A DNA stretch of 64,000 bases, taken from positions 7,210,001-7,274,000 of the forward strand of contig NC_134029.1 of assembly GCF_964204645.1 (NCBI RefSeq), in the 5' to 3' direction. A program made the position numbers and the translations under genes. This document shows, in pieces, positions 2,531 through 50,937 of this stretch; the first letter of the stretch is position 1, and every line of letters starts with the position of its first letter. The stretch comes from Tubulanus polymorphus. Lineage: Eukaryota > Nemertea > Palaeonemertea > Tubulaniformes > Tubulanidae. A model generated the notes under the pieces. It was not told the DNA's origin, did no database searches, and saw only the letters and a program-made list of their open reading frames with translations.

Positions 2531-3547
2531 GAGCGAAATAAACTAAACTAGTTTATCTCGGGTAATGCGGCGTTTCCTAACGTGGTCATCGTGGTACTTT
2601 GTCACGACGTCCCGGAATGCCTTGAACGCATTAATTATTCAAACATCGCTCAACGAACATGCGTGAAGCTAACCACGCATAAAGCTATCCGGTGCCGTTG
2701 TCTCTGCCTACATCTGTCAGAGAAATCGTACTTGAAAACGCGGAATAATATATTTGCGTGTGTATATACATTATATGAGTTACGTCGGAGCAGAGTATCG
2801 ATCGACTAAAACTCATTTTTAGCATCTTATAAGTCTACTCACTCTTATTTTTCATCGAAGATTCGCTTCTATTGGTCTACGCCCACTCAAACAGGAAAAT
2901 GATATATGAATCACTTTTGATCTACTAGAGATATTCCGACATTTGAGATGTCTTAGTACTCAAACGTCGGAAATATTCGCGATAGAAAAAAGAAATGACT
3001 TTTTTCAACTGTGAGCTAGGAGGTATCAGCAACCGATAATGTCTCCACATAATTGCTACGAGTCAATTTCATTAATCGCTTAGAACTCGTTCGAAATGGT
3101 TACGCTATTGAACAATTCTGGAGCAGCTTTATTAGTAAAGCGGACCAACGATTTGGATCTTATTAAGGAGAAATTTGTCTCATTTGATAGTATTAATTTG
3201 TCCCAAATTTATCAATAAACGTACACAATGCAATAATCCATCCTCATTTCTTACATTGGTTCGCTCCGTTTAATGGCCATTCAAAAACACGATAACGCTC
3301 AGCCAAGTTCGACTTCTAATTGTATTTCAACATTCCACCCTCGAGCAAACATCCAGGTCTACCATTGACTTTATGGCAAGTTATATCTATTCGAAGTAGT
3401 TTTCTTTAAATAAAGCATAAGTAAAGAAGTATCGAAAGAATATTATATACTGTAAACAGAATGTAACGAGATTATAACCGAGCAATCGGGTGCAATCGGA
3501 TGTTATTAACATCTTCATGTCCTTCGGTAGGTCGCGCGAGGACAATA

Positions 3548-3672
3548 TTCCCGGGCCCGGTTTTGTAGACTGGTATAACCTTAAATCCGGAGGCTAACTC
3601 AATTGATAATGAATTGAATTAGCCCCCGGGTGAAAGGTAATACCAATCTATAAAACCGGGCCCTGGGTTTCA
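3548..3672. mobile_element. Palindromic MITE with GGGCCCGGTTTT ends
   Basis: The left arm, GGGCCCGGTTTTGTAGACTG and on, is matched by an inverted right arm ending AATCTATAAAACCGGGCCCT. The stem is roughly 33 bases. The centre itself folds (CAATTGATAATGAATTG), so almost the whole 125 bp can form one hairpin. It has no coding capacity. The GGGCC/GGTT edge resembles the element at 23724-23849. Confidence 0.6.
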
Positions 3673-4805: not shown

Positions 4806-5491
4806 TCACGCCGCCTCGGCGTCTGTTTCGGTCGTCTGTTTATCGACCAGGCCGATTTTCTGCCCGAGCCATTTGAATTTGGCGGCAATTTCGTCCTGAA
4901 TTAAACTAAAACACATGGATAGGATAGCCATGCCGAAAATCATGTAGATAGCGCCCATGATTAACTGTATATGGGTTTTTGTCGACTCCAGATCTTCGGT
5001 GCCGGGTACGAAGTCTCCGAACCCGATTGTACTGATTGTGATGAAGCAGAAATAGGACGAATCGAGCATGTTCCATTCTTCCCAAATGCTAAACAACACC
5101 GCCCCGAACACGATATACGCAGTTATCACTAACATCGTAACAGTCAGAGGTATTGTAATGTTATCATCATCAAACTCATCGTCCTCGTCATCTTCGTCAT
5201 CTTCGATAACGACCGGACCAGTTTTCGGCGGAGGTGTAGGTTTGCCAGAGTTTTCCGTACGCCAGGCAGGTTGAGGTGGCGGGTTTTGTTCGACCGACTC
5301 GACTTTGGTTTTTTCGGTGCGTTTTCTGAAGCAACCGCAACAACAAACCCGCGAGTAAATAAGCTTGAACAGATCGGCAAGGACGTCGCCTATCATCGCC
5401 AAAAACAGCAGCAGAAGCGGTATACCCAATACGGCGTACGCCATGCAAACCACTTTACCCCAAGTTGTCTTCGGTGCAATGTGTCCATAAC
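4806..5491 (-). CDS. K2P shared terminal exon: filter 1 end, TM2, TM3, P2, TM4
   Basis: The exon starts after a TTTAG acceptor with GT TAT GGA, completing G-Y-G-H-I-A-P. It then encodes TM2 (VVCMAYAVLGIPLLLLFLAM), a Cys-rich segment (CCCGCF), a Pro-rich stretch and an acidic run of about 15 residues (DDEDDEDDEFDDD). TM3, pore 2 (TISTIGFGDFVPG), TM4 and a short C-tail ending DAEAA and TGA follow. The short cytosolic C-terminus is unlike TREK or TASK. No second copy of this exon exists elsewhere in the window, so all four upstream first exons appear to depend on it. Confidence 0.9.
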
Positions 5492-8400
5492 CTAAAGTAA
5501 AACACAAGAGAAATGATAATCAGTTTAGATACCAGTTTGAGATGTCTATGGTTCATTGAAAAGGATCCCGCTTAAAAATCGGAATGAAACTGGAAGAGAT
5601 ACGATCTTCTTAAAATTATAATAACGGTTAATTAGCATATTTTATGCCACTTTTCAAAATCCTTAGAATTATAATCAGGTTAATTTGCATATTCTATGCC
5701 ACTTTTCAAAATCTGCTCTAAAACTTTGCAGCATATTGCCAATAGATCGTTCATACCGGTATCGGGTCTCATCAAAATTAGATTTAACTATAGGAGATGA
5801 TGCAAATGTAATTTGTAATTTTAGTAGTCGACCTTATCGACAAAAATGACATTTATTACTGTACTCGTCGGCAATATCGCTATGAATTGATTAAGATAAA
5901 ATGTGAAAACGACATCTGCCTGTGCGTACTGTGTATTTAATATTGAATGTTTTCTCTTGAATCGATGTTTATCAGTTCACAGTTTATGAGTTGGTGGCCT
6001 GGTAACAAGTGAATACGTCAGTAGCTACGAAGTCCTCAGAACACGCTCTCTCTCTCTCTCTCTCTCTCTCTCCCGTATATTACACAACGGCTAATAATGT
6101 TTTGCAATGAACCGCGTGATTGATTAGGACACGAAATCATGAAATCATCACTGTAATGATGTACGCCTTACGAAGGCATATATTTCATATAGAAGTAATT
6201 TTTCGGTTTTTGGCGCAATTCATCATCCAAAAATGTATACTGAGAATTGTCCACCAACATTTAACGAAGAAAAGAAATGAAGCTTTAAGAAAAGCTTGCC
6301 ATATTTAAGGTGACTCGATATTCACAGAAATGTGTACTTCTTCACAAGGATTTACAGTACTGAGCTGGTTCAGCCATCGAAGTGTAATTTTCCGCAAACA
6401 GACAAACATACCTTAATCTAAACTACAAATAAAATTGTATGTATATATTTAAAAAAAGTAATTTCGAGGAAATTGCATCCAAACCATATCATACGAAGAA
6501 TTAGAATTTGCCACTCGCATTGACAAACGTCGAAATATCGCCGTTGTTGTTATCGGGGCGAGAGTAAATTAAAAGCGAATTAACCTTGACCTGAATTGTC
6601 ACAACCTCGTGTTCACTTTTCCATTTTCTACGTAAGTATCCACATCTCGTCTGTAGCGCGATTAATTTGACGTCACATATGCGTCAGTAATAATTCCGCC
6701 ATTATTTCCTATATTTATTGGAATCGATATCAAAAACTCAGCGCGCTGGATGCTGATATAGAATCACTTAGCAAACCCGCCACTTTTCCATTTGCATATA
6801 ATTTCATTGTTTATTTTACCACTTCTAGAAAACCTGATGTCACGAAAAAATCAAAACTGAAGTGTGGTTTTCTAGATAAACACACATGAACGCTGACAAT
6901 GAAACGAAATTTGCGTGAAATTATTGTACGTGATACGTACGAATTCAATTTCAATTCAATCAATTCAACTCGTTCATATGAAATGCATATAAACTCTATG
7001 ATTATCGTAATCAAGATATACACCGACCCGGTGGGCTTGTAATCAGGGTCCTCAGTGTATTGGACTACGACGCGCTTACAAATAAACGATGCTTATACCA
7101 AACATGTGCGTATCGACGTTCATAAGAAATGCATAACATGCAAAATGAAAACATGCAAAATGAAAACTCAACTAACGAGTTATCGACGGATGCGGTTATT
7201 TGATAATCTATACATATGAAGGCTGCAAGTTAATCCATCATGAAGTTAATTTGATCGAATATATGTCCTACTGTCTGGTAGCATAGCTGGTGATACGGGA
7301 ATGCCATTTGCTTGTCTATTGGAAAATGATAATTCGTTTCAGTTTTTAAAAGCTTACTTGTCGATGCAGAGTGTTTCGTCATAAATGGAGGAGATTCATA
7401 GTATTGATGAAATATCTAGAATGGGCCTTTTATCTCCTCTATCTAGTTCAGTACGAAAAGGCGGTTTCTTTAGGGGAAACAAAACCAGATGATGAATTAA
7501 CGAAACATTCAATAGCCGTTTAAATGGGGAAATACCAATCCAAATCATTTTTCCACTTAAAGCCTTTATTAGAAACAATCAAACTGCTTCTAATGATTAT
7601 TATAATTGAATACTGCAACCAAATTCAGATCACAGCCTTTTACGGCCGATGTAGATATCTATTCCATTCAAATGGCATTTAGCAAGAGTTGAGATTGATA
7701 TTCTCCTCACAAAGTTCATCTACAATTCAAATAACTGTATTGACGCACGTCATGTTAACAGCAATACAAATGATTTGGTATTGTCCAATATTTCAAGAAT
7801 TTTATGGTGCGATTTTAATATGGAGCGGGAATTCCTCGTGCCAAAGCCAGAAACCAGTCAAGTTTACTATTCATATGACACGAACTATTTAGGCGAATAT
7901 AAATAAATAACAGATATGTTTCAACACGTATAACGATGAAGATTGAAAAACACAAAACCATTGATCGCTGGGGGCACTATTTTGACTCGGAGTAATCCCA
8001 CGAATGAGTAAAAACAGGTCTTTAAGACCAGCCATTGCAAACTGGCCTGGTAAAAGAAAGAAAAAACTTTCGCATCAGGTGTCCTGCAAGGTTTTCACCT
8101 TTTCTGAAAGAATGTATATTTCATTCATATGTTTTGAGATACAGGGCTATATTTGGCCGATAGGCTTCATTCATCTTTAATCCTATTCGATCAAATTGTT
8201 GTGTTTTCAAGAACGCATAGTCTGTTTCCATGGTTGCTTATGATAACCGATCTTTAATGACCACGTGTCTGTTGCGAATCCGTGCGGATTAAGAGCGGAT
8301 TATACGCGAAACACAATTCGCACGATTGACTCGCAATTGGATTATAACGGCAAAAAATGGGCAATGAATTGCCTAACGAAAGAATCAATATCAAGCTATA

Positions 8401-11400
8401 CCTATACTGCCCTCAACGGCCGGGCCGTTCTCGGTCGGTATTTGATTTGGCGCACGGCAATCTCTTGTTAACATTATATAATCGATTCCAATAAGTGCAA
8501 TGAAGATTTGTTGCCGCTAATTAATGAAACGAAACGAAATTCGCCGGGTGAGTATACGGTCTAAGCGATATAAACGACTAGCGCTGTTTTTGAATTGATA
8601 TATCTGTATTCACCTTATCACACAGGGCAAATCGATGGCGAATCCGAAATACCACACGCAATCGCCGTCAACCTTCAGCCCATATTTATTGCCGTTTTTA
8701 TGAATACATATCGCGATTCCGACGAAACGGAAATGATCTGAAAGCGCTCCGACACGAGTCGAGCACTTCAGGTTCGAGAAATGTTTGTCCGCTTTATGTG
8801 GCTTAGATTGAACGTCGGCTGTTACAGAGCGCCAGACGTCAATTCCATCCTGCTAATTACACGTTGGGATTATTTTGATTATTTTCAACGGATAAAACCT
8901 GATAATGCAGGATGAAAATTAAAAGATTGGAAAAAGGGCTTTTATTCTACCTACTTGTGGCAGTTTCATTAACGAATGACGTACTGGTATTCGAGTTAAA
9001 TTGATTGAAATGACGTAGGCTACTGGTCTTTCGAGTTAAGAATAATACTGATTCAAATGACTTTTTTGAATCTGCCTTCACAAATATAGAAGCGTATGCC
9101 CACTAAGTTCAGACGTTCTGACGCCATCCGTAGTATTGTTTATATCTCGAGTGTTTTTTTATTTTGTTTCTTTTCCAATATGATTTTGCAAAATGCCAAT
9201 ATATACACGCAGCAATACATTGTTTTCATTAGTTCGACTTCGAGATCAGTTTCAAGAAGAAAATACCACAATAGATACCGCCGAAGCAATTATGCAATAG
9301 ATCACTTGATGAATTGCCCGTCAATGTCGCCAGGACAACAAGATACATATATACAAATCGGCTAGGGGGAAATAATCAACATTTTGTTTGGGTGCACATG
9401 CGCTGAATTATTATTTCGTTTTTCATATATCAACGAACGGCTTAGTTTTATCGGGGCGGGGGGTGGCAGCGCTCGACCTCCCTGATTTTATTATCTAGTC
9501 GGTGAATTCACAATGAACGGATCGTAGAATATCTGATTATTAAAATCCGTTAGTTCTGCAAAGTATCAGCACGGGAGTATTATGGGCCAAGTAACATGCT
9601 AGCCGAATATGGGTTCGAATCTAAGGCTTGAATGCGAGGTTAATGTCATCGGAAGGACTAGCGATTCACTATTGATTCAAATATGATACGAGTAGCCATG
9701 CAATTCATAGGCTTTCAATCATTTATTAATGAAATAATCGAAATATGACTAAACGTGCGCGATTGGTTTTCAGTGAAATGATGGATATATTGACCACTTT
9801 CTGTTTACGTGATATATTAAAGTGTCGTGTCTGGGAAATGCTGGGTAGTTTGCCTATACGATCAATCAGTAACGTTTTCAGTCATATTTGCAGACTCTTG
9901 GCTGAAGTGTTTTCTTTTATGGTTTATACCATATATGCATTCTATGATTAGAAAGAATGTCCATAATTAGACAAAAATGAAAGATCTGATGACGAAAAGT
10001 GAGGATTTGACTCAAGGAGAAATGGTATTCTCTATGTTAGAAATAAGTCTGATGGCATAAGCCATCAATAAGCCTACGTTAGTAGGCCACAGGACCCCAA
10101 ACATAGTACCTAGAATGAACAACGGTTTCCCAGTAAAGTTGCCATACTTCCAAAATTAGGAAAGATGACGAAAACCGTTATCATGAAGTATGTAATCCGT
10201 GTATACTAAAAAGACAAATTGATCATGAAATAGTTCCCAGAAACTATTATGCCTTGAGTGAAAGTACCAAACATGGAGGATTCCCTACATCATTTAGCTC
10301 TAGAGTACTAAATGTACTTGTACACCTGTATTGGAATACCCATCCTTTCTCAAGGTCAAGATCAAGGTTTGATTATTTCAACAGATTGGTTAAGTATGTG
10401 AGCGCAATTGTGGTAATAGGAATATTTATGTTCATCATTGTTATCTTCATCATCTTCATGGACTGATGGTTGAAATTTCAAAAGATGAGTCAAAAGCAAA
10501 AATGTATAGTTTAAGTTTTCAATGGTGGAAAATACTATGACCGTTCTCCTCCTACTGAAAGTAAACTTTCACTTCTAACACGGCAAATGATGGTCATGGT
10601 ATACCTTTTACTGCGCTAAAAGGTCTCCATGTCAATCATAACCCATCGAAAGAGTACGAAGAGAAATGCATAAAGTACGGGAACAGGCTAAAATCGTTTT
10701 CCTTTTTCTTTTTGTCGACCGTAATCTCTATACATATCCCATTAGCAATGGACATTGAGAGTGGCGGGAAATGGAGTGGCAGGAAACAGCAGTGGCAACA
10801 GTGGAAAGTGTGTCAGAATTTAACCAGCTTTTCTATCGCACATTTATCGAATATCGTTCATCTTTTAGACGTGATTTCAGTCGGAACAAACAATATACAA
10901 CGTACCTAGGACCACCTCTCATTAAGAGATTGTTTATATGAATGGCAGAAAAATGAACAAATATTCTCCATTCTTACCAAATTCATTTTAGCTGAAGGTA
11001 TGAAATTACAGCTGAAGGTATGATACATGTCTTAACTATTCTGCTACACAGAAGAAGCAAATATGGGGAAATGATGCAAACGGGGATGGAAAACAGCCAA
11101 ATCTTTCTAGCTCAATTTCTAGCGTTTTTTTCCCTCCGTATTATATACAATATTTGATCCCATGTTCCAACGCTTTTCGAATTCGGTACCCTTACGATTG
11201 CCTGGTAACCAGGCATCGTATGCACGGATAAGTGGAAAAGTTCGGCCCTCAAGCGTGCAGGGTAAGCCTACAGGTTATCATATGTAGATTTCAAACCATT
11301 ACTTTGTGTAAGTTTGGTAACAGGTTGAGGATCTAACTACAGCCCTAGTCTACACGATCAGCATTAAAATTCTCCACCGATCTTAATCGGCAGAAGAATC

Positions 11401-14400
11401 ATTCAAGCAAATGTAAAAAAAAAACTGGTTTTCAACATTCTTGCAATGAATAATTCAAAACCAAAACGAAAATGAATCTAAGTAAGAAGTAACACGTGTT
11501 TGATGATAGACTGACTACAAACAGTTATAGATCAGGCCGAACATACCTATCGTGGACACTACCGTTACAGAAAACATAAGTGATCCGGCCCATGACCACT
11601 TATTGGAAATTCCTCCCGGCTCACCCAGAAGTGAGCAATTTACGTCCAGGTCAAGGGCCACGACATTGTGACGAAATCGTTGCAGAACTTTTACCATCGA
11701 CACTTTCGTATCGTATTCGTCGTTTCCTTGTTGAGTGATGTCGTACAGTCGGTTGGTCGTGTCATTTTCCTGTATGACATATTTATCATATTTGTTAAAA
11801 CATTCGCTTTTTTCGTTCGTCTTTTCGAGATGCTCGAATATGAAGCCTCCCATCACCGAATACAGACACACCATCAGAAACAAACCCACGTGCGAGAACA
11901 GAAACTTGAGAAACTTCTTGCAAACTCCGATGCATTTTTTGCGTTTTTGTTCTTTGCCAGTGTCAGTCACGGCCACGTCGGGCGGTGGCATCGTTGGCGG
12001 CGGTTGTTTCTCCATTCTATCCAGATTTCTATTGTGAACGCTGTTGGACATTCCGTCGTGTATCCGATGTAAGTGACCAGAAAATCTCGTCAAAACGATG
12101 AAAAATCGTAGAAAGTTACGAAGACATCAGCGGCGGCCGGGCTTCGCCATTCAGTGCACATAATCTTATCCTTCAACGCTCCGATCTCGAACACGTGCTA
12201 ACTTCTTAGCATCGTTCTGACTATTTATCTTAATCTAGAACATTTACATATAATCTTTGATTTGTCAGCTTAGTCAACGCGACTACCAACTAGCATATCA
12301 TAATCGGGATTCGTGATGAATTAGAATTATCTTGAATGATGCTTATTCTCGACTTCACCGATAGCTATTAAGTTCACGTCAAAGAGTTGATCACGACTTA
12401 AAACCGATAGCTATAAATGTTTAAATTACATCGTTCTGGAAATATCGCTCTAATATAGCCGACCGGTTTGAAGCTATCAATTTTTCTGGTTCCACGCAGA
12501 ACACGTTCGTAAGAGAGGGTTTCTATGACGACATACGATGCCACGCCGATCGAACAACGCATGCGCTTCCGTCCGATGCAGCGACGGCGGTCCACGTCCA
12601 TATGCGACAGTCAGCGTTGTAGCATAGCGACGACGTTTCAAACGAGGAAGAAGATATGAATTATTGTGGTTTCCCACAAAACATTTCAGAATCTTGCACT
12701 AAACCACCTTTGTCAATTCGCGAATGTTTTTTTTATTACCATCGCTATCAAGGGCGGCTATTTTTCTGGTGGCCAACTTATGGAGGGTAATGTTTAACGT
12801 CATAGGGGCAACCCAGCAAAGCGAGCGCAGCCAAAGTACAAAGCTCAGAAAGATGGTTCTAGGGGCGTTCTTCCTCCCGCAGGAAATTTAAATTTTGAGT
12901 CTCCTGAGGCGCCTTTCTAGGCATTCTAAAACATTTTTGAAAACAATGATTCACGAATCGTCGGATATGTATAAAGAATCAGCATAAATTCAAGCCAAAA
13001 TAATACGGCCATATTTTCTTTCAACATATTTGATAGCACCTCAGAAACATTAGGGTGGACCAGACCCCTTTGGTCGTCCCTTGGATATTCATTTATAGAA
13101 GAAATTTATTGCAAATTTTGATATCTTTCAGCAGCATCAATATAATTGCAATTGCGGCGGGGGGTAATAAAGACTTTATGTCTAAACCTGAAAGCAATTT
13201 ACTAATCATGATTTTTTTCTAGATTGCTATGATGATTGTGATTTGGTGATCGAGACTGAAGAAATTTTCGCAGACAACCATTTAGATCGCCGCGTTTTAC
13301 GCCGTGAGACTATAGCCTTATCCTAGTGCCGGTTCTCTAGGTACACACTGAAGGAAATAAAAGCTAAAACTTGTTCAAGGTTGCAACGAATAACTCTTTC
13401 TCTTTTTTCATTCGCTTGGCAAACAATTCCAAGTTCATCATTCATTTTACGCCAAAGAATCTGAATAAGAATGTAAGGATGAAAAAAAAATAAAACAAAA
13501 TGTATCGTGGAGAAATTATCAATTTGTGTTCAATTGAAGCTCACGTCATCGATTCGATGTTAGGCAACGGATCGTAAAGGAAAACGGACTGAGATGTTGC
13601 AAGAACACATCCGCCATCTATGAAAATATCTCAATCGGTGCAGTAATCGTGCCAAAACTCTCGTGTTCTTTTACAACCATTAATTAAAAATGTAAGATCA
13701 GCTTCATGCAACGAAATCACCAGCTATCAATTTCATCCGGCTCACGTTAGAATAATTATACGGACATCACTTAAAAATGTTTGGGACCGTTCTAGTCGCT
13801 GGTTAGGCGAGATACGTAATGAATAGAACTATGTACTAACCGGCTCTCCGAATCAGTACGAAACTTATTGTAAGGGAATATTACATTTACCTTTGCAGGT
13901 TTTATCAATTTATTTGTGAAAAAGATGATCAGATATAAAAGGTCTATAGAAATATAAGAAGACCCATCGTCAGTGAATTCTTACCAATTGTACTAATCAC
14001 TGTTACAGCAAACAGTATGGATCCAGTTAGCGACCATTTATAAGGTACGCCTCCAATTTCACCGATTTGCGTACAGTTTACATCCCAGTCAAGAGCGTAT
14101 ACGTTATCGCGAAACTTTTCTAGAAGTAATGACATCGATGCCTTGGTGTCTTCTTCTCCCAAACCTTGTGTAGCGATCTCGTAGAAGTGATTGGTAGTGA
14201 TATTCTCCAAATCACGGTATTTGTAATAGATAATGAAACAGGCACTTTTTTCGTTCGGTTTTTCCAGATGCTGGAATAGAAACCCGCCCGACGTCGCGTA
14301 GACTATCACAATCACAAACAACCCGAGGTGTGAAGACATCACTTTACAAGTTTTCTTAGCGCAAATTATGATCTTGCGTTTTCTATCATTTGGTCGTCCG

Positions 14401-17400
14401 TCTAAAGGTTCCTCGTCGCCACAGCGATCGACTACGACGTTTGATCTCATCCTTGTCGGTGGTACAGGGCCGGTCATCGGCGGCGGTTTATGCAATTGTT
14501 TGTCCCCTTCGTCCATTTTATCGATTAAACCACACAACTTATTATCGAATATATACGACTGTTACCTTAACGATATTTTTTCGGATTAAATATCTAATTT
14601 CCAATGAAAATAATCAACGTGATATCCAAGAAGTGGCCTCTCCATCGAGTGTCGATATTACATTTATCCATGATCCAATTCGTCACTGGTTAGTTACAGT
14701 CGCAATCGCTAAATTATTGAAAACGGTCAACAAAAACCGTGGTGCAACTACTCGAGCTAAAACCAAATACTAGAATAACCCTTGAAAAACATACGCCGCC
14801 TACTGATTGAATCATTGCATGTCAAACGCTCTAATTGAGTGTTGTTTTAAGCATATATGTATATGCATACATTCGGGATGTGTTACGATGGATACCATCA
14901 GTTATATGACACTTGGGACCAGAGGAAACTACTCAATGTTGCTTCACTCACGTTTTGCTAATTTCGAGCTCATGAAATATTTATTTCCTTCGAAATCGTA
15001 ATTGTTTTTAATGGATAGGAATGCGCAAATCATTCGTCTACTCGCTGGCGATCCGCCCAATGTTCGGTCGAGAGAGTGAAGTGAAGGCCTAGTTCGAATA
15101 AATTACTTATCATTGTCATAGACATAGAAATATTGCGATAACCATTTGGTTCTCATCATTTTTCGATTTCTATGAAAACGATAATAGATTCCAAACCAGG
15201 GCGAGTTAGACGACTATTTGCGAAAGTGAAACCGAATGTCAATTAGTCGGAACTATAGTCCGTATTTGCTCCGATCACTAGTCGACTAATAACGAAATCT
15301 GCGTAGGCATTGCATTAGGGGAACTGCATACGATGCGTGTCGTGCGCCACCCGTTCCTCTAAGGCACACGAGCTGAAAAATACGTAGGCAAAGTTTTTTC
15401 GATATTAGGATACAATTATCATGCTTTTTGGATCCTCTTTCATTAGGGAAGCGTCCCTTTCCACGGGAAAGATGTGCCCTTAGTGAGCGAACCCCCTGAA
15501 ATTTTCAAAATGCCCTTCATAGAGTCCGCCAAAAAAATTCTGGTCAAGATTTTTCGAAATTTGGATACATTTTTGGATCTAACCTTTTTCAATAAGAAAC
15601 TGACTCTTTTCACGGTGAAAATGCGTCCTCTTTCTTGGAATAGAACTGCCCCTCAAAAGACCCATTATCGCTTTTGTTATCTGTTATCTGAAAGCCCTAG
15701 AAAACCTGGTAGAAATCTGTTTAGGTGTTGAAAGTAGTTTAGGAGCCTTAGGCTTTCTGTGAAAGAAAAAAGAAAACCTTAATTACCATGCAATAATGTT
15801 GACTAACTTGGCAAAAACTAGTCCCCCTAAATCCGCCCCTAGTTGATTGATACTCAAAAGCTGATGATATTGGCTATATTTTCTTTTATAAGCATATCAA
15901 ACACAACAATCGTTGATTCATAACACGAATCTAACTTTCTATATGATATGCAAAATTCACTTGTGTGCGAGGCTTGCATTGATTAAAAAGAACTTTAAGG
16001 TGATTTTTTGGCATTACGTCAATTTATTTAAATTCCTATCGAGTTAAACGGAAGACTACGTTGAAATGATGAAAGAAGCAGAAAAGAAATGATAATTTGT
16101 TTTTATCCGAGTTGGTCGCGTTCATCTTCGGCAAAGTTTTACTTCTTACTTAGAATATTTACTGCAATTTCTATAAACGATTTACTTGGTATGTAGAGTA
16201 TATATGTGTACATGCAAAAATTCTTGAACGATTGAAATTATTTCATCTCTAAGTGAAGTAATATCCCAATTCAGAAACTTTTTTACTGACAGAGAAAGGT
16301 ATCGAGTTTTTTTAAAGAAAATAACCTACCAACAGTTGACGTGACGGTAACTGCAAAAAGCAAAGAGCCAGGAATCGACCATAAGTATGGATCTCCACCA
16401 GGCAGCCCAAGCAGATCGCAATCTAAGCCCCAATAATCCAAAGCATATACATCGCTCCTAAATCGATCGGCAATCCGATGCAATGACACGAAAATATCCT
16501 TTTCATCCAGTCCTGAGGTAGTTATTTCCCAAATAGCTTTTATGGTACGATTTTCTAGAGCGAAATACTTGGCTGTGACGTCATAACATTCCCATTTCTC
16601 GTTCGGCTGTTCTAATCTGGCGAAGATGTAGGCCCCAGCGATTGTATAAGCTATAACGAGTGCGATTACGATGACATATTTCATAAAAACTTTGAACGCT
16701 TCTTTCAGCGTCTTTTTAGCTTCTTCTTTTTTGTCCGATGTCGGCGTACTTTCATTCGTATCTGCGGGTGTTATGTCTGGTGTTGAAACTCTTCTTGTGG
16801 GTGGTTTCGGCGGTCGCGTAGGTATAATCGACAACTGATCCTGTGACGACGAGTATTCTGAGCAATAAACCCAATTTTCGTCCCTCTGATGCATTTTGTA
16901 TCCCTACGTAAGTTCCTTTTTGGATATTATCATTCGCAGTCAGAGAAAATTGTTTCAGAAAGGACAACTTCCCAAATATTCCAGATTTTGTAACTTTATG
17001 CATGCAAATGACAAAAATAACTATCCCTATCGCCCCTCTTAGCACTCTTAACGCACGGCACTATGACCTCTCTTGGCTCTGTCCAGTGCTATCCTGAGGA
17101 AACGTTTCATGTCTGTAATGGTGTTGCAACTAATGGCCACAAACGCGCAATTGAAGCACACATAAAACAATTTTTCCTGATAATTGAATATGAAGAAACA
17201 TCTATATTCATGCGAAAAAGGTACTTCAAATTTGTTTGCCGTCGATTCGCCATGGCAAACCCCCCTGAACAGTCATCTAATATTCAGACGAATTGCGCCG
17301 GTACACATTCTGTTTTAAAAAATTAATTATTTCAACCTATAATGAATGACTATGATGAGCCGTTAGTTATTGGAAAAGTAGCACTTTCGATATCGCCTAT

Positions 17401-18962
17401 TCAATAAATACCCAGTTCCGCCGAACATAGTGACGACAATTTGGCGTTTGCTGTTAATTTCTACCATACGTACACCCTCTCAAAACAGTTCGCGCAACAA
17501 GCAGATTGATATTTGAGACTAACAGCAATGGACGTCCATCCAATATATGAACATGTGTACGTACGTCAAATCAGTTACCGTTTAATTCATACATTCACCG
17601 GATTTCTGCTCTCTTCAAAAATGATAATTTATCTAAATTTATTTATAAGTAAAAGGAACTAAATATGTTTTGAAATCATTTCGGGGTCATTGAGTTTTTG
17701 AATGGGAATTTTGATGATGAAAACTTATTATCAATCCTTTTGCAACACCACTATTTGTTGCATTTTAAATTTTCGTGATGTGGGTTTCTGAAATAAAGAC
17801 GATTTTTCCTCTAGTAGCTTTATATACTAACAAAGAAGGTTAGAATTTAGACGCTTAAGGACACATTTACACCGAAAGAACCTATACATGGAGTCTCAGA
17901 AAATGTGTTACCCGAGCTTTATGAAATGGTACACGGTAATAATGCCAGAGGTAAAAATGCCATAGGTTATATATTTCTTGTTTTAGGTTCGATTCCATTC
18001 TCATATCCATTCAGAAACACGGTAGTGTTCAGATGCATGGTTAATCATTGTATTTCAATGATACGTCCTCGTGCAAACATCCAGGTATACCAACTTAACC
18101 CCCCCCCCCAAAAAAAAAAATAATTAATCTCAATAGTTATGGTAGTTAATAAATAATCAGTCTTAAAGCTTCGGTTACACATTTCTGAGATGCTTTGTAT
18201 ATAAATATCTATTAAATTGAATATTACTATCGGATATAGTATACAAAACGATATCAATGACATAAGTTTATAGGGAAACATAATACATGGTAAAAGTAAA
18301 AGAATACCAATAAATTCATTCATTATTCATATCTAAAGGACACGGTTAACCAATCGATTTTCTCGCTAGAAAAGTAACACGTTTGAATTACTTTTATACA
18401 TCATCTGAATTTCTCTATTCGCTGGGTATTTACGTACTTCGAACTCACCTATTGTTGTAGTAACAGTGATAGAGAACATAAGCGCTCCCGACATTGACCA
18501 ACCAAGCGGCTTCGAACCCGGCTCGCCGAGGGTCGAACAGTTGCCGTCCCAATCAAGAGCGACCGTGTTCGATTTGAATCGATCGAGAATTTTCATGATA
18601 GATCTTTTGATTTCCTCTTCGTCGTTTCCGAATGTGGTCACATCGTACAGGCGATTGGCCGTATCGTTTTCTTGGTATACATATTTCAAATATTTGTCGT
18701 GACATTCGCTTAACTCGTTGTGCAACTCGAGGTGGCTAAACACGAATGCGCCCATCACCGCATACAGGCAGACGACAAAAAGCATACCGACATGTTTGAA
18801 ACAGACTTTACAGAATTCTTTCGCTCGAACTTTGAGTCGGATCACCGAAAAAACGTTGTCGGAATTATCTTCCTCGATTATATCGCCGTTGCCGCCGGCG
18901 GTTCGAGGTTGGGTCATCCGCCGATCCATGTTCACGTCAACGCTTGACATCATAATAGACAT
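4806..18962 (-). CDS. Two-pore-domain K+ channel locus with four alternative first exons
   Basis: This is a K2P (KCNK/TWK-type) potassium channel locus on the minus strand. The shared 3' coding exon is 4806-5491. The candidate first coding exons are A 11547-12051, B 13985-14516, C 16330-16894 and D 18449-18962. Each ends with a GT donor after one base of the glycine codon of the first filter. The shared exon opens after TTTAG with the other two bases, restoring T-I/V-G-Y-G-H. The predicted proteins are 396 (A), 405 (B), 416 (C) and 399 aa (D). Each has four membrane segments, two pore loops, an extracellular cap between TM1 and P1, and an acidic cytosolic TM2-TM3 loop. The second filter is T-I-G-F-G-D. 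K2P channels carry background K+ current as dimers at the plasma membrane. I cannot assign a vertebrate orthologue; the second-filter region looks closest to invertebrate TWK/TRESK-like members. Confidence 0.85.
5610..5715. repeat. Two-unit 53-bp tandem repeat with an octamer motif
   Basis: The unit at 5610-5662 is repeated at 5663-5715 with a few substitutions and one small indel. The second unit contains ATTTGCAT (5683-5690), the classical POU octamer. The first has ATTAGCAT at the equivalent place. It lies in the intron beside the K2P shared exon. Confidence 0.7.
6045..6072. repeat. CT dinucleotide microsatellite
   Basis: An uninterrupted run of CT repeats lies in the K2P intron, about 550 bases from the shared exon. 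On the sense strand of the channel gene it is a purine (AG) run. Confidence 0.9.
11547..12051 (-). CDS. K2P alternative first coding exon A
   Basis: It encodes residues 1-168 plus one base: a Pro-rich and Lys-rich cytosolic N-terminus, TM1 (about 54-72, VGLFLMVCLYSVMGGFIF), the cap, and pore helix 1 ending VSTIG. The cap has Cys at about 84 (KSEC) and 139 (VNC) and N-glycosylation sequons at NDT (about 96) and NCS (about 138). I chose ATG 12051 because the longer open frame begins only at a TTG codon. The donor is G|GTATGT. It is most similar to exon D; both share QENDT-NRLYD and a GEPG motif before the pore. Confidence 0.85.
12052..13984. other. Interval between K2P first exons A and B
   Basis: This interval must contain the promoter or leader for exon A if each first exon has its own start site. 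No TATA or initiator could be assigned. Around 12770-12910 there is repeat-like sequence (AGCAAAGCGAGCGCAGCC followed by a conserved-looking block) typical of dispersed invertebrate repeats, but I could not set its borders. Confidence 0.4.
13985..14516 (-). CDS. K2P alternative first coding exon B
   Basis: It encodes a 177-residue N-terminal part with a Pro-rich start (PPPMTGPVPPTRMRS), a basic stretch, TM1 (LGLFVIVIVYATSGGFLF), the cap and pore helix 1 ending ISTIG. The cap cysteines (KSAC and VNC) and sequons (NIT, NCT) sit at the same positions as in exon A. ATG 14516 is the first in-frame Met; the open frame upstream offers only TTG and then a stop. The donor G|GTAAGA is close to consensus. 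Diverged from A but collinear, so it is a paralogous exon rather than an unrelated one. Confidence 0.85.
14517..16329. other. Interval between K2P first exons B and C
   Basis: No coding exon recognised. Around 15390-15640 there are two loosely similar blocks (a TTTTTCGA...GGATACA segment followed by CTCTTTC or CTCTTTTC-type sequence), possibly a decayed tandem or repeat relic. Nothing else is supported. Confidence 0.35.
16330..16894 (-). CDS. K2P alternative first coding exon C (most divergent)
   Basis: It encodes a longer N-terminus (about 70 residues before TM1) with a Pro-Thr-rich segment and a Lys-Glu-rich helix, then TM1 (YVIVIALVIAYTIAGAYIF), cap and pore helix 1. The sequon NRT in the cap is kept, but the second sequon before the pore is lost (the Cys is in GLDCDL). 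The filter half is T-V-G instead of T-I-G. The donor is G|GTAGGT, in the same phase as the others. ATG 16894 starts the frame. This exon is the outlier of the array. Confidence 0.85.
16895..18448. other. Interval between K2P first exons C and D
   Basis: No coding exon recognised. It contains one arm of the AATGCCAGAGGTAAAAATGCC repeat (17935-17967) and a C-run/A-run junction (about 18100-18120). Confidence 0.4.
17935..17967 (+). repeat. Solo copy of the AATGCCAG repeat arm
   Basis: It reads GGTAATAATGCCAGAGG followed by TAAAAATGCCATAGG. It matches the inverted ends at 558-722 and 27576-28092. No partner arm was seen nearby. Confidence 0.6.
18449..18962 (-). CDS. K2P alternative first coding exon D
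   Basis: It encodes residues 1-171 plus one base: a Met/Ser-rich start, an acidic stretch (IIEEDNSDN), TM1 (VGMLFVVCLYAVMGAFVF), cap and pore helix 1 ending TTTIG. Cap cysteines (LSEC, GNC) and sequons (NDT, NCS) are retained. The donor is G|GTGAGT, a strong consensus. It is the most distal exon from the shared exon (about 13 kb) and closest in sequence to A. The start is about 1.9 kb from the ATG of the divergently transcribed FERM gene. Confidence 0.85.
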
Positions 18963-46898: not shown

Positions 46899-49800
46899 TT
46901 ACGTCCTTTTCGAACGCTTTTTCGCCGATGCCGATCCACGCCAATTCGGATGGGCTCGTTCGATATGTTTTTTCAAGCCGATTTCCGTGTCGAATTCTTT
47001 GCGACACCGACGACATTCGAGTTCGTGTTGCATTTCATTACTCGAGTCACTGTCGACGACAGCGGCGACAGCGCCGTTGCGCACGCGATCGACCTCGCCG
47101 CTCGGCAACACAACAATGTGATCGTCAAATTGCTTTCGCGCGCGTCGTCGACGCGAGTATTTCTCGTAGTCACGAACTTTATGCACGATCAACAAGTGAT
47201 TGCGCAACGTGCGCTCGACGACGAAACTGACTCCGCACTCGGGACAATCAATCGACTCTTCCTCGGCCCGATGTTCGGCGACGTGGTCCTCATACGCGCC
47301 TTTGTTTCGGCTCGTAAACGAACAGCTAGAACATTGATACAACTCACCATCATCATCATCATCATCATCGTCGTCATCATCATCGTCTGAACTACTCTCC
47401 TCACTTTCCTCCTCTTCGGCATCATTCTCGACGGATTTCGAACGTTTTATAGCAATTTCAGGCAGAAGATGAGAAGATAGTTTACGTTTATTGTTATTAT
47501 CATAACGTCGAGTGGACTCAACTTTTGCCACTTCTGGCACGGCAACGTCGGATTTACTTTCAGCCAATTGAGTTTTCACCACTTCCGATGCGGATTTAGG
47601 TTCAGCCGATGAAGTAGCTGAAGAAGGGACCACGACTTCGTCGGGAAATCGAGAATAGTCGATTTTAGCGCGCGGAATCTTGTGGAAATTGATGATGTGC
47701 TTTTCGAGATAGTCTCGGCGATGGAACGCCTTATAAACTTGACAATCGCGACAAATATAGCACACGTATTTGAATAATGAACTCGTATGCGATTTCTTAC
47801 TGTGGATTAGCATGAGTTCCTTCGTGTCGAACACCATCGAGCACCGCGGACAAATATGTTTCTCGGGGACAGGGGGCTCGGTGGGCGTCTTTTCACTAGT
47901 GTCGAACATATCGTTCAATTCATTTTCGACCGTTCGTCCTTCGTTACTATTTTCCACCTCTAACGCTTCGAAAACCGACGACTCATTCGACGACGTCGAT
48001 TTCGGCAAGATCGCCACGTTCTTCTTACTATGCGCATTTTTGACGTGTTTTTCGAGGTCGCTTTTCGACACGAACGTATCGTTGCACGTTTTGCAGAAAT
48101 GGATATCGAGCTCTCGCATCTGTTGGTTGGACTTGGCTTTCCAGCACGTGCGCGAATGTTCTTTTTGACTGTTCTTATCGGGGAATATGCGCGAGCACAG
48201 CAAACAGATGAAATGGCCTTGTTTTTCGTGGACTTTACGATGTTTGTACAGACTATCTCGGTAGAAATATTTATTGAAACAAATCGGACATTCATACGGC
48301 GCGTACAAGGACTTTAATGACTCTGAAGTCGTACACGGCTTCGACGAGGAATTCCCGCTTGATCTTTTGTTCCCTTTTCCCGGCGAAGAGCCGACTGTCG
48401 CTTTTTCTATGACGCTGTTACACACAATGCCGCTACAAACTTTGATATGCGCCAGGAACTCGGCATTGTTGTGACAAGTGAAATTACACTTATCGCATCG
48501 GGTATAATGACATTTATGAACTTTAGCCAGATGATTGACGAGATCGACTTTCTTTTTGGCCAATTCCGAGCACAAGAAACACTGATACCGATACTTGCGG
48601 TATTTCATTTCGTCGGCGTAATGTTTCTGAATGTGTCCATTGAGCACGTTCGCCTTGCGAAACACGGTATTGCACATCGGGCATTTCACAATCCACGTGT
48701 GACCCTCTTCCGGGTTCAGATCGCCGTGCGTCGTCGAGAAATGCCCGAAGAAACTCTCGCGCGATTTAAACGCCATCGGACATCGGTGACACTTGAAATA
48801 GCCGTCGGCGTGTTTCGAGCGCATGTGTTTATTCGCGGCCGACTGCTCCTCGAACAGGCCGTCGCAAATGTTGCACATGTAACGAACTGTACGCGATAAA
48901 TGCAAGCACTTCACTTTGATGTGATCGGCAAAGCCTTCCTTCGATATGATGTTCAGACCGCATTCGGGACACACCTGCGGCAGTATCCGCTGATGTATAC
49001 GTGTGTGAGCTTTCAAACTACACGCGCTCGGCAACGGTAACTGACAGTGAGCGCAAACGTCGTCGAGGCTCATTTTTCCGCTGCCCTGGAAATGATCGGC
49101 CAGTTCGTCGGACGTTTTAAACCTCATCGGACACTCGGGACAAAATATGTCGTCGGAAATTATATTCAAACGGTCGGTATTTTCGGCCGGTTGCGAATCG
49201 GAATTCTTCGTTTTCGACGATTCGAGAAGTTGTTTCTCTTTCGGCGCCAGCAACAAAACGTTCACCTTCAGATCGTCGTATTTCGGTGTGATACCCGTTT
49301 CGGTGTGCTCGCGCACGTGCTGAATGTGCGCGCATTTATTGTAGAAAGTTAAATTCGTGCTGCACACGTCGCAGTAGTAGCTGATTTCGACGCTCGCGCG
49401 ATCCATATGCTCTTTTAGACTCGATTCGAACAGGAATGTATCGTTGCACGACTTGCACTCGTGAACCGACGTCGGCGCGTGTATTTTATCCGCTGCAGCG
49501 ATCGTCGGAACGTATTTCGGAAGCGGATTCTCGTGGCTCAGCATCGTCACGACGGTCACTCCCCCCGAAACGAACGAGCTGTCTAATTTCTTCTTTTTCG
49601 CGTTGGTAACGCCTTTCGGAGCTTTGGTCGTCGTCGTAGGGGTGGGATTCTGCGGAGATGTAGTCGGTGGTTCCTGGTTAGATTTCGGTGGCGAATTTCC
49701 GTCCGTTTGCGGCGATACTGAGTTCAAACTAGGCGATAGTCGAACTTCACCGGCTGTTCCACAAACGGATTTCGATACTGGCATTACGTCCGGTGTAGAA

Positions 49801-50777
49801 GACGTGCTCCGGCGACTGTCCGAAGATGGTCGTCTGCCGTGTCCTCCTCGCGGTGACATATTTCGTCCGTCATCGTACATGTCCATATGCATCGAACCGG
49901 GAATCACTGGAACCATACCGTTATTCATCGGTATCAAGTCCAGATTATGCGGGCCGAACATTCCGTTATTTACGCACATCGGACTGTTATTTCTCATATG
50001 AATCATACCCGCGGCGTGCGCGTTGTTTTGATGATTGAAGAAACCGTGAAATTGCGGCGGCGCGGCAGGTGGAAACTGCAACGGAACGCGAGACGGCGGA
50101 GGCATCATCGTCAACGGCGGACCGCGCGCTCTCGACATCGGTATCTGATACGTTTGGAAACATTCATTCGGCGGAATGGGAGGCGGGTGATCCCTTAACC
50201 GCGGGATAAAATGATTCATGAATCCGCGCGCGGGAAACGGATTGCGTGGAATATTCATTTGACCCGGTAATGGAACATGTGGCTGCGGGAAATGTTGCAC
50301 GTGACAGTTTTCGGGTAACGGCAGGACTCCGAACGGAGGTGTGTGCTGACGGTGATTAGATAACGGTAACTGATTGTTAGGTTGTCGTCCGGTAAATTGA
50401 GGAACTTTAAGAATCGGCGAATTGTTCGCCATGAGATTCTGTTTGATCGCGCGCGATCGCCTACGTTTTGGTTTTTGCGGCTCCGCGCGGACCAATCGCT
50501 CAAGTTTTTCCAGACTGTTCAAGTGCACGGAGGAATCGCCGGACTGATTCTGGTCATCCGGATGACTACAGAAAGTCGGTATATTCAACGGCACGTGATC
50601 TCCGGGTGGCGGCCTGTTCAGTTTGTTCGCAACCAAATCTTCGGAACGGCGGCCCTGATGAATATCCGGTTTCAAGTTGAAGTTTTCAATGTTGTTATTG
50701 TCGGATTTTTCTTTCGTGACGGTCGGTATGTCCGAAATATCATACGCCGCCATCAGATCCTGAAAACAGTCATCCAT
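46899..50777 (-). CDS. C2H2 zinc-finger protein of the ZNF592/ZNF687/ZNF532 family
   Basis: One uninterrupted coding exon encodes 1292 aa. The start is taken at ATG 50777 (MDDCFQDLMAAYDISDIPT) because an acceptor, TTCTCTTTTCAG, sits just upstream and the earlier ATG would lie inside the intron. The opening D-x-x-L-x-A-A-x-D-I-x-D string matches the N-terminus of ZNF592/687. Residues about 100-115 are a basic PKRRRSR stretch, a likely nuclear localisation signal; about 150-400 are Pro/Asn/Met-rich. C2H2 fingers begin near 440 with the family's unusual first pair (CNDTFLFESSLKEHMDR...C..C...FYNKC...H...H) and continue to the end, including CPECPMRF, CQLPLPSACSLKAHTRIH and CPMAFKSRESFFGH. A 13-residue Asp run and a basic C-terminus (KKRSKRT) follow. 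Vertebrate members are chromatin-associated transcription regulators; that role here is inference. Confidence 0.88.
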   Translation of the reverse strand: MDDCFQDLMAAYDISDIPTVTKEKSDNNNIENFNLKPDIHQGRRSEDLVANKLNRPPPGDHVPLNIPTFCSHPDDQNQSGDSSVHLNSLEKLERLVRAEPQKPKRRRSRAIKQNLMANNSPILKVPQFTGRQPNNQLPLSNHRQHTPPFGVLPLPENCHVQHFPQPHVPLPGQMNIPRNPFPARGFMNHFIPRLRDHPPPIPPNECFQTYQIPMSRARGPPLTMMPPPSRVPLQFPPAAPPQFHGFFNHQNNAHAAGMIHMRNNSPMCVNNGMFGPHNLDLIPMNNGMVPVIPGSMHMDMYDDGRNMSPRGGHGRRPSSDSRRSTSSTPDVMPVSKSVCGTAGEVRLSPSLNSVSPQTDGNSPPKSNQEPPTTSPQNPTPTTTTKAPKGVTNAKKKKLDSSFVSGGVTVVTMLSHENPLPKYVPTIAAADKIHAPTSVHECKSCNDTFLFESSLKEHMDRASVEISYYCDVCSTNLTFYNKCAHIQHVREHTETGITPKYDDLKVNVLLLAPKEKQLLESSKTKNSDSQPAENTDRLNIISDDIFCPECPMRFKTSDELADHFQGSGKMSLDDVCAHCQLPLPSACSLKAHTRIHQRILPQVCPECGLNIISKEGFADHIKVKCLHLSRTVRYMCNICDGLFEEQSAANKHMRSKHADGYFKCHRCPMAFKSRESFFGHFSTTHGDLNPEEGHTWIVKCPMCNTVFRKANVLNGHIQKHYADEMKYRKYRYQCFLCSELAKKKVDLVNHLAKVHKCHYTRCDKCNFTCHNNAEFLAHIKVCSGIVCNSVIEKATVGSSPGKGNKRSSGNSSSKPCTTSESLKSLYAPYECPICFNKYFYRDSLYKHRKVHEKQGHFICLLCSRIFPDKNSQKEHSRTCWKAKSNQQMRELDIHFCKTCNDTFVSKSDLEKHVKNAHSKKNVAILPKSTSSNESSVFEALEVENSNEGRTVENELNDMFDTSEKTPTEPPVPEKHICPRCSMVFDTKELMLIHSKKSHTSSLFKYVCYICRDCQVYKAFHRRDYLEKHIINFHKIPRAKIDYSRFPDEVVVPSSATSSAEPKSASEVVKTQLAESKSDVAVPEVAKVESTRRYDNNNKRKLSSHLLPEIAIKRSKSVENDAEEEESEESSSDDDDDDDDDDDDDGELYQCSSCSFTSRNKGAYEDHVAEHRAEEESIDCPECGVSFVVERTLRNHLLIVHKVRDYEKYSRRRRARKQFDDHIVVLPSGEVDRVRNGAVAAVVDSDSSNEMQHELECRRCRKEFDTEIGLKKHIERAHPNWRGSASAKKRSKRT
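47344..47390 (-). repeat. Trinucleotide run encoding an aspartate tract
   Basis: A CAT/TCA-type trinucleotide run on the plus strand (ATC and GTC units) encodes about 13 consecutive Asp, preceded by a Glu/Ser-rich acidic stretch, between finger clusters of the zinc-finger protein. Likely length-polymorphic. Confidence 0.85.
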
Positions 50778-50783
50778 CGTTAT

Positions 50784-50795
50784 TCTGAAAAGAGA
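50784..50795 (-). promoter_or_regulatory. Splice acceptor before the zinc-finger coding exon
   Basis: On the minus strand TTCTCTTTTCAG ends one base before the exon, followed by AATAACG and then ATG. It implies at least one upstream non-coding exon of the zinc-finger gene, which I could not place. Confidence 0.6.
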
Positions 50796-50937
50796 ACGCA
50801 TTGATAATATACATTACTATCAGTCAGTACTTGCATAGAACTGAGTTTGCATAGAACTAAGTTAGTGTAGAACTGAGTTCTATGGTACTTGTTACTGTAG
50901 ACTCTGCCTTACTGGTGAACTAAAAAAAAAAAATCTA

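Follow-up and report, generated by a model that had tools for sequence, protein, structure and literature searches.

A candidate tandem array of four alternative first exons in a K2P channel gene of the nemertean Tubulanus polymorphus

Described variable-first-exon genes and alternative channel exons

K2P channels are dimers that set the resting potential, and their extracellular cap shapes the access of ions and of drugs or toxins. Genes in which tandem homologous first exons feed one constant 3' part are familiar from the clustered protocadherins (Pcdh) and from UGT1A. The chelicerate sDscam genes are built in a similar way from tandem 5' cassettes, and promoter activity has been demonstrated upstream of their variable cassettes (PMC4835542). 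The Tubulanus polymorphus locus described here is like Pcdh, UGT1A and sDscam in its homologous tandem units and single constant part, with first exons that each have an ATG and a compatible donor and that face one shared 3' part. Those systems encode adhesion molecules or enzymes and usually comprise more copies, whereas here the product would be an ion channel and the join falls inside the selectivity filter.

Variation at the 5' end has also been reported for K2P genes. The Caenorhabditis elegans K2P gene twk-40 has isoform-specific upstream exons and separate upstream promoter regions that differ in neuronal activity, all of its isoforms having a 393-aa channel in common to which the extra exons add an extended N-terminus only (PMC9049526). 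In the present locus, by contrast, TM1, the cap and the P1 helix themselves would be swapped by homologous exons. In mammalian TREK-1 and TREK-2 the N-terminus is varied by alternative splicing and by translation start, and the variation in translation start alters single-channel conductance; the variation described there is confined to the N-terminus and spares the pore and cap, and no tandem homologous first exons are described (PMC8396510). The exon 15/31 alternatives of invertebrate NALCN and the exon 12 alternatives of T-type Cav3 channels do change the pore or extracellular turret of an ion channel (PMC3557258, PMC4436565), but these are internal, alternatively spliced exons, whereas the K2P array would consist of alternative first exons.

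Our search of open-access papers located no K2P first-exon array by which TM1, cap and P1 are exchanged, and an annotated but undiscussed case may exist. The earlier note on this DNA had known of no described K2P locus with four such exons, and our search is consistent with that statement, while being no proof of absence. What would be new is an array exchanging TM1, the cap and half of the first pore loop; variable-first-exon genes and alternative N-termini of K2P channels were already known.

Anatomy of the locus and its predicted channel

The window analyzed is a stretch of 64,000 nucleotides (NC_134029.1, contig 5, positions 7,210,001 to 7,274,000) of a genome of 268 Mb in 77 contigs, and the positions below are those of the window. 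On its minus strand we found the four homologous exons that the earlier note had described as each encoding an N-terminus, TM1, a cap and P1. Along the direction of transcription these are exon D (18449-18962, donor gtgagt), exon C (16330-16894, donor gtaggt), which is the most divergent, exon B (13985-14516, donor gtaaga) and exon A (11547-12051, donor gtatgt), followed by the shared 3' exon at 4806-5491. All four begin with ATG, have a length of 3n+1 and carry a GT donor after the first base of the glycine codon in T-(I/V)-G, which confirms their common phase-1 end point at the first filter glycine.

The shared 3' exon, also on the minus strand, encodes the GYG of filter 1, TM2, a loop, TM3, P2 (TIGFGD), TM4, the C-terminus and the stop, as judged from the spliced-frame translation, Pfam Ion_trans_2 and K2P structures. 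The lone acceptor ahead of 5491 (5492-5493, phase 1, ttactttag followed by G) reads ...gttttactttag followed by G and scored 2.9, where the 95th and 99th percentiles of the background are 2.2 and 3.5. When A, B, C and D were joined in silico to 4806-5491, all four products were in frame with the previously calculated lengths of 396, 405, 416 and 399 aa, respectively, the frame passing across each join from T(I/V) into GYGHIAPKT... and staying open through to the stop.

By its sequence, the locus encodes a K2P (KCNK/TWK) leak-potassium channel, for which a K+ leak current is predicted. Isoform A gave two Pfam Ion_trans_2 matches (6e-35), and among known structures KCNK9, KCNK10, KCNK3 and KCNK2 matched it best (top 4.7e-28). 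Both K2P filters are present: the join creates T(I/V)GYG, and the 3' exon encodes TIGFG(D). Within the first exons, hydropathy gives TM1, and a cap loop of 78-81 residues lies between TM1 and P1. An AlphaFold model of exon A, built from four sequences, has a cytosolic helix, TM1, two cap helices and P1 in the expected order; its confidence is low (mean pLDDT 52) and it was taken for helix order only, and Foldseek returned no meaningful match with it. Pfam gave no match for the first exons without the 3' exon, since its profile depends on the filter.

When the whole genome was searched for the 3' exon, a single copy was found, the other matches being K2P paralogues of lower identity, none of them on contig 5; the next best was 48% identical over part of the exon and lay on a different contig. 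A search with the Pfam pore domain brought contig 5 two more matches, which lie on the plus strand at a distance of 200 kb or more, and neither search found a second 3' half on the array's strand of this contig. Using the four isoforms as tblastn queries, we found no K2P exon beyond the five in the window and the 10 kb leftward of it. The claim that only one 3' exon is available to receive A-D is borne out by the genome-wide search, and extra 3' exons to the left of the window, a prospect raised in the earlier note against a shared receiver, were looked for and not found, as far as the assembly goes.

Several other features were observed along the way. Three pore-domain matches on one strand within ∼5 kb (C2:30185744-30190913) and a pair of such matches (C1:2471441-2474316) are possible tandem ion-channel clusters. 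Within the window, a hairpin with 58-nt arms, 83% complementary around a 1-nt loop, lies directly downstream of the K2P gene (3550-3666) and resembles a small foldback element. A 46-nt direct repeat, 83% identical between its copy downstream of the receiver exon (3319-3364) and that in the C-D spacer (18047-18092), is probably a dispersed repeat. On the minus strand at 46899-50813, an open frame of 1304 codons encodes many C2H2 zinc fingers, one of them ZNF592-like according to Pfam, and marks a large zinc-finger gene that is mostly one exon.

Divergence, selection and origin of the four copies

The four first exons are 37-51% identical in pairwise amino acid comparisons over the whole exon and up to 60% identical in the TM1-P1 core, a similarity far beyond chance (E values of 1e-24 to 1e-45). 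Mean identity rises along the exon from 27% in the N-terminus through 45% in TM1 and 48% in the cap to 61% in P1. In aligned codons, pS is 0.77-0.92, which is saturated, and pN is 0.33-0.47; codon position 3 is the most changed in all six exon pairs. No stops or frameshifts are present in exons A-D, and no similarity between spacers was detectable. In a simple neutral-decay simulation with indels left out, the probability of all four frames being open was ∼2e-5 after 0.1 substitutions per site and fell below 1e-8 after 0.2, and the divergence seen among A-D is far above this range. To judge from their coding divergence and unrelated spacers, the copies of the array are old. The open frames, the excess of third-position change and the same placement of the donor, all kept despite saturated synonymous sites, argue for purifying selection on four working exons, whose expression is predicted.

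With exons A, C and D and the first exons of three related K2P loci as queries, matches fell in exactly four places in the array, and every related locus had just one. Among the loci compared, a set that leaves out TASK-like and other distant K2P genes, the array gene alone has a multiplied first exon. Its closest relatives in the same genome are two contig 2 genes, 48% and 41% identical over the second half. A phase-1 intron in the first GYG glycine is typical of the K2P family, as the earlier note had stated, and the three related loci have it at the same position as the array gene; the intron position is therefore a shared family state. Exon A is the array copy most similar to the first exons of the related loci. 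The first-exon tree does not group A-D firmly into a single clade (support 52-67).

Two cap cysteines, C84 and C139 in A numbering, are invariant in A-D, and none of the three related first exons has them, which suggests a local origin of the four copies. An array-specific C84-C139 cap disulfide is plausible. The earlier expectation that the four caps differ in glycosylation holds in part: exon C has lost a second site, N138, that A, B and D have, whereas the N-x-T at N96 (A numbering) is common to all four array exons and, by alignment, occurs in one related exon also.

Promoter choice and the alternatives to it

In-frame stops lie 78, 48, 12 and 57 nt 5' of the ATG in A, B, C and D, respectively. 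With a crude acceptor matrix and an intronic background, no acceptor above the 95th percentile was found within 400 nt 5' of A, B or D; C has one acceptor-like site, at position -199 relative to its ATG, which scored 3.7 against a 99th percentile of 3.5. No promoter motif common to the regions 5' of the four ATGs was detected, shared upstream k-mers did not exceed the background, and no clear TATA or Inr was present there save one TATA-like match 39 nt before the ATG of B. The minus-strand spacers 5' of A (12052-13984) and 5' of B (14517-16329) contain no K2P exon, are unlike the other spacers and are candidate promoter sites for their exons, while the spacer 5' of C (16895-18448), which includes the acceptor-like site, is a candidate site of a promoter or of a 5'UTR intron. 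The upstream in-frame stops, together with the lack of a convincing acceptor near A, B and D, make it more likely that A-D are true first exons, each with a promoter of its own, than that they are mutually exclusive internal exons.

If A-D were instead spliced in a mutually exclusive way, a single promoter upstream of D would serve a shared non-coding 5' exon and they would be second exons, reached through acceptors in their 5'UTRs. Such a 5'UTR exon is compatible with the sequence, and both the site ahead of C and the missing common promoter motif are in keeping with it. However, A, B and D have no comparable acceptor, and the in-frame stops preclude an in-frame join to a coding exon further upstream, so that we regard this arrangement as unlikely, if the most credible of the alternatives. 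Far less credible is a gene with one true first exon, probably A, and three dead copies. The position of A closest to the 3' exon and its resemblance to the related first exons would fit this, but synonymous change is saturated in all four exons and they nevertheless retain open frames, the third-position excess and conserved donors.

Two further explanations strike us as barely tenable. Tandem gene duplication is common and assembly can collapse tandem repeats, so A-D could be what is left of four full tandem genes, their 3' halves having disappeared either from the genome or during assembly. Against this, the spacers of 1.5-1.9 kb contain neither N nor any trace of a 3' exon, saturated synonymous divergence makes an assembly collapse implausible, and there is only one receiver in the genome; and had the 3' halves been lost and the orphan first exons then come under selection, one would arrive at the shared-receiver reading all the same. 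Each first exon also runs a few codons beyond its donor before reaching a stop, and unspliced or early-polyadenylated messages of B-D could thus yield truncated one-pore subunits acting as dominant negatives. The donor position is identical to the codon in each of the four exons, though, and the read-through tails are unconserved.

We consider the best explanation, with a probability of roughly 0.8, to be one K2P gene whose four alternative first exons form a tandem array; their transcription and splicing we infer. The variable-first-exon array proposed in the earlier note is supported in its anatomy and by selection, and promoters for the individual exons, like their transcription, stand as predictions. 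Each first exon would have a promoter of its own, with transcription running in the order D, C, B, A and receiver, and the donor of the chosen exon would be spliced to the lone acceptor at 5491; any downstream first exons, which apparently lack an acceptor, would be skipped. The array most likely originated by repeated duplication of the first exon in a two-exon gene with its intron at the conserved GYG position.

The four predicted subunits would have TM2-P2-TM3-TM4 and the C-terminus in common and would differ in the cytosolic N-terminus, TM1, extracellular cap and P1 helix. It is probable that promoter choice among four ancient, selected first exons thereby swaps TM1, cap and P1 on a constant TM2-TM4 and, since K2P channels are dimeric, co-expression could give up to four homodimers and six heterodimers, ten combinations in all. 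The exchanged part makes up the extracellular cap together with half of the first pore loop, so the channels would be likely to differ in ion entry, block, assembly and trafficking.

The array is of clear interest to channel biologists, as a swap of TM1, cap and P1 on a fixed TM2-TM4 would amount to a ready-made natural domain-swap experiment. The locus would also offer a test of whether promoter choice can diversify leak conductance cell by cell, as with the protocadherins. If our reading is true, protocadherin-like logic operates in an ion-channel pore, and a single locus would supply dimeric leak channels with different outer mouths.
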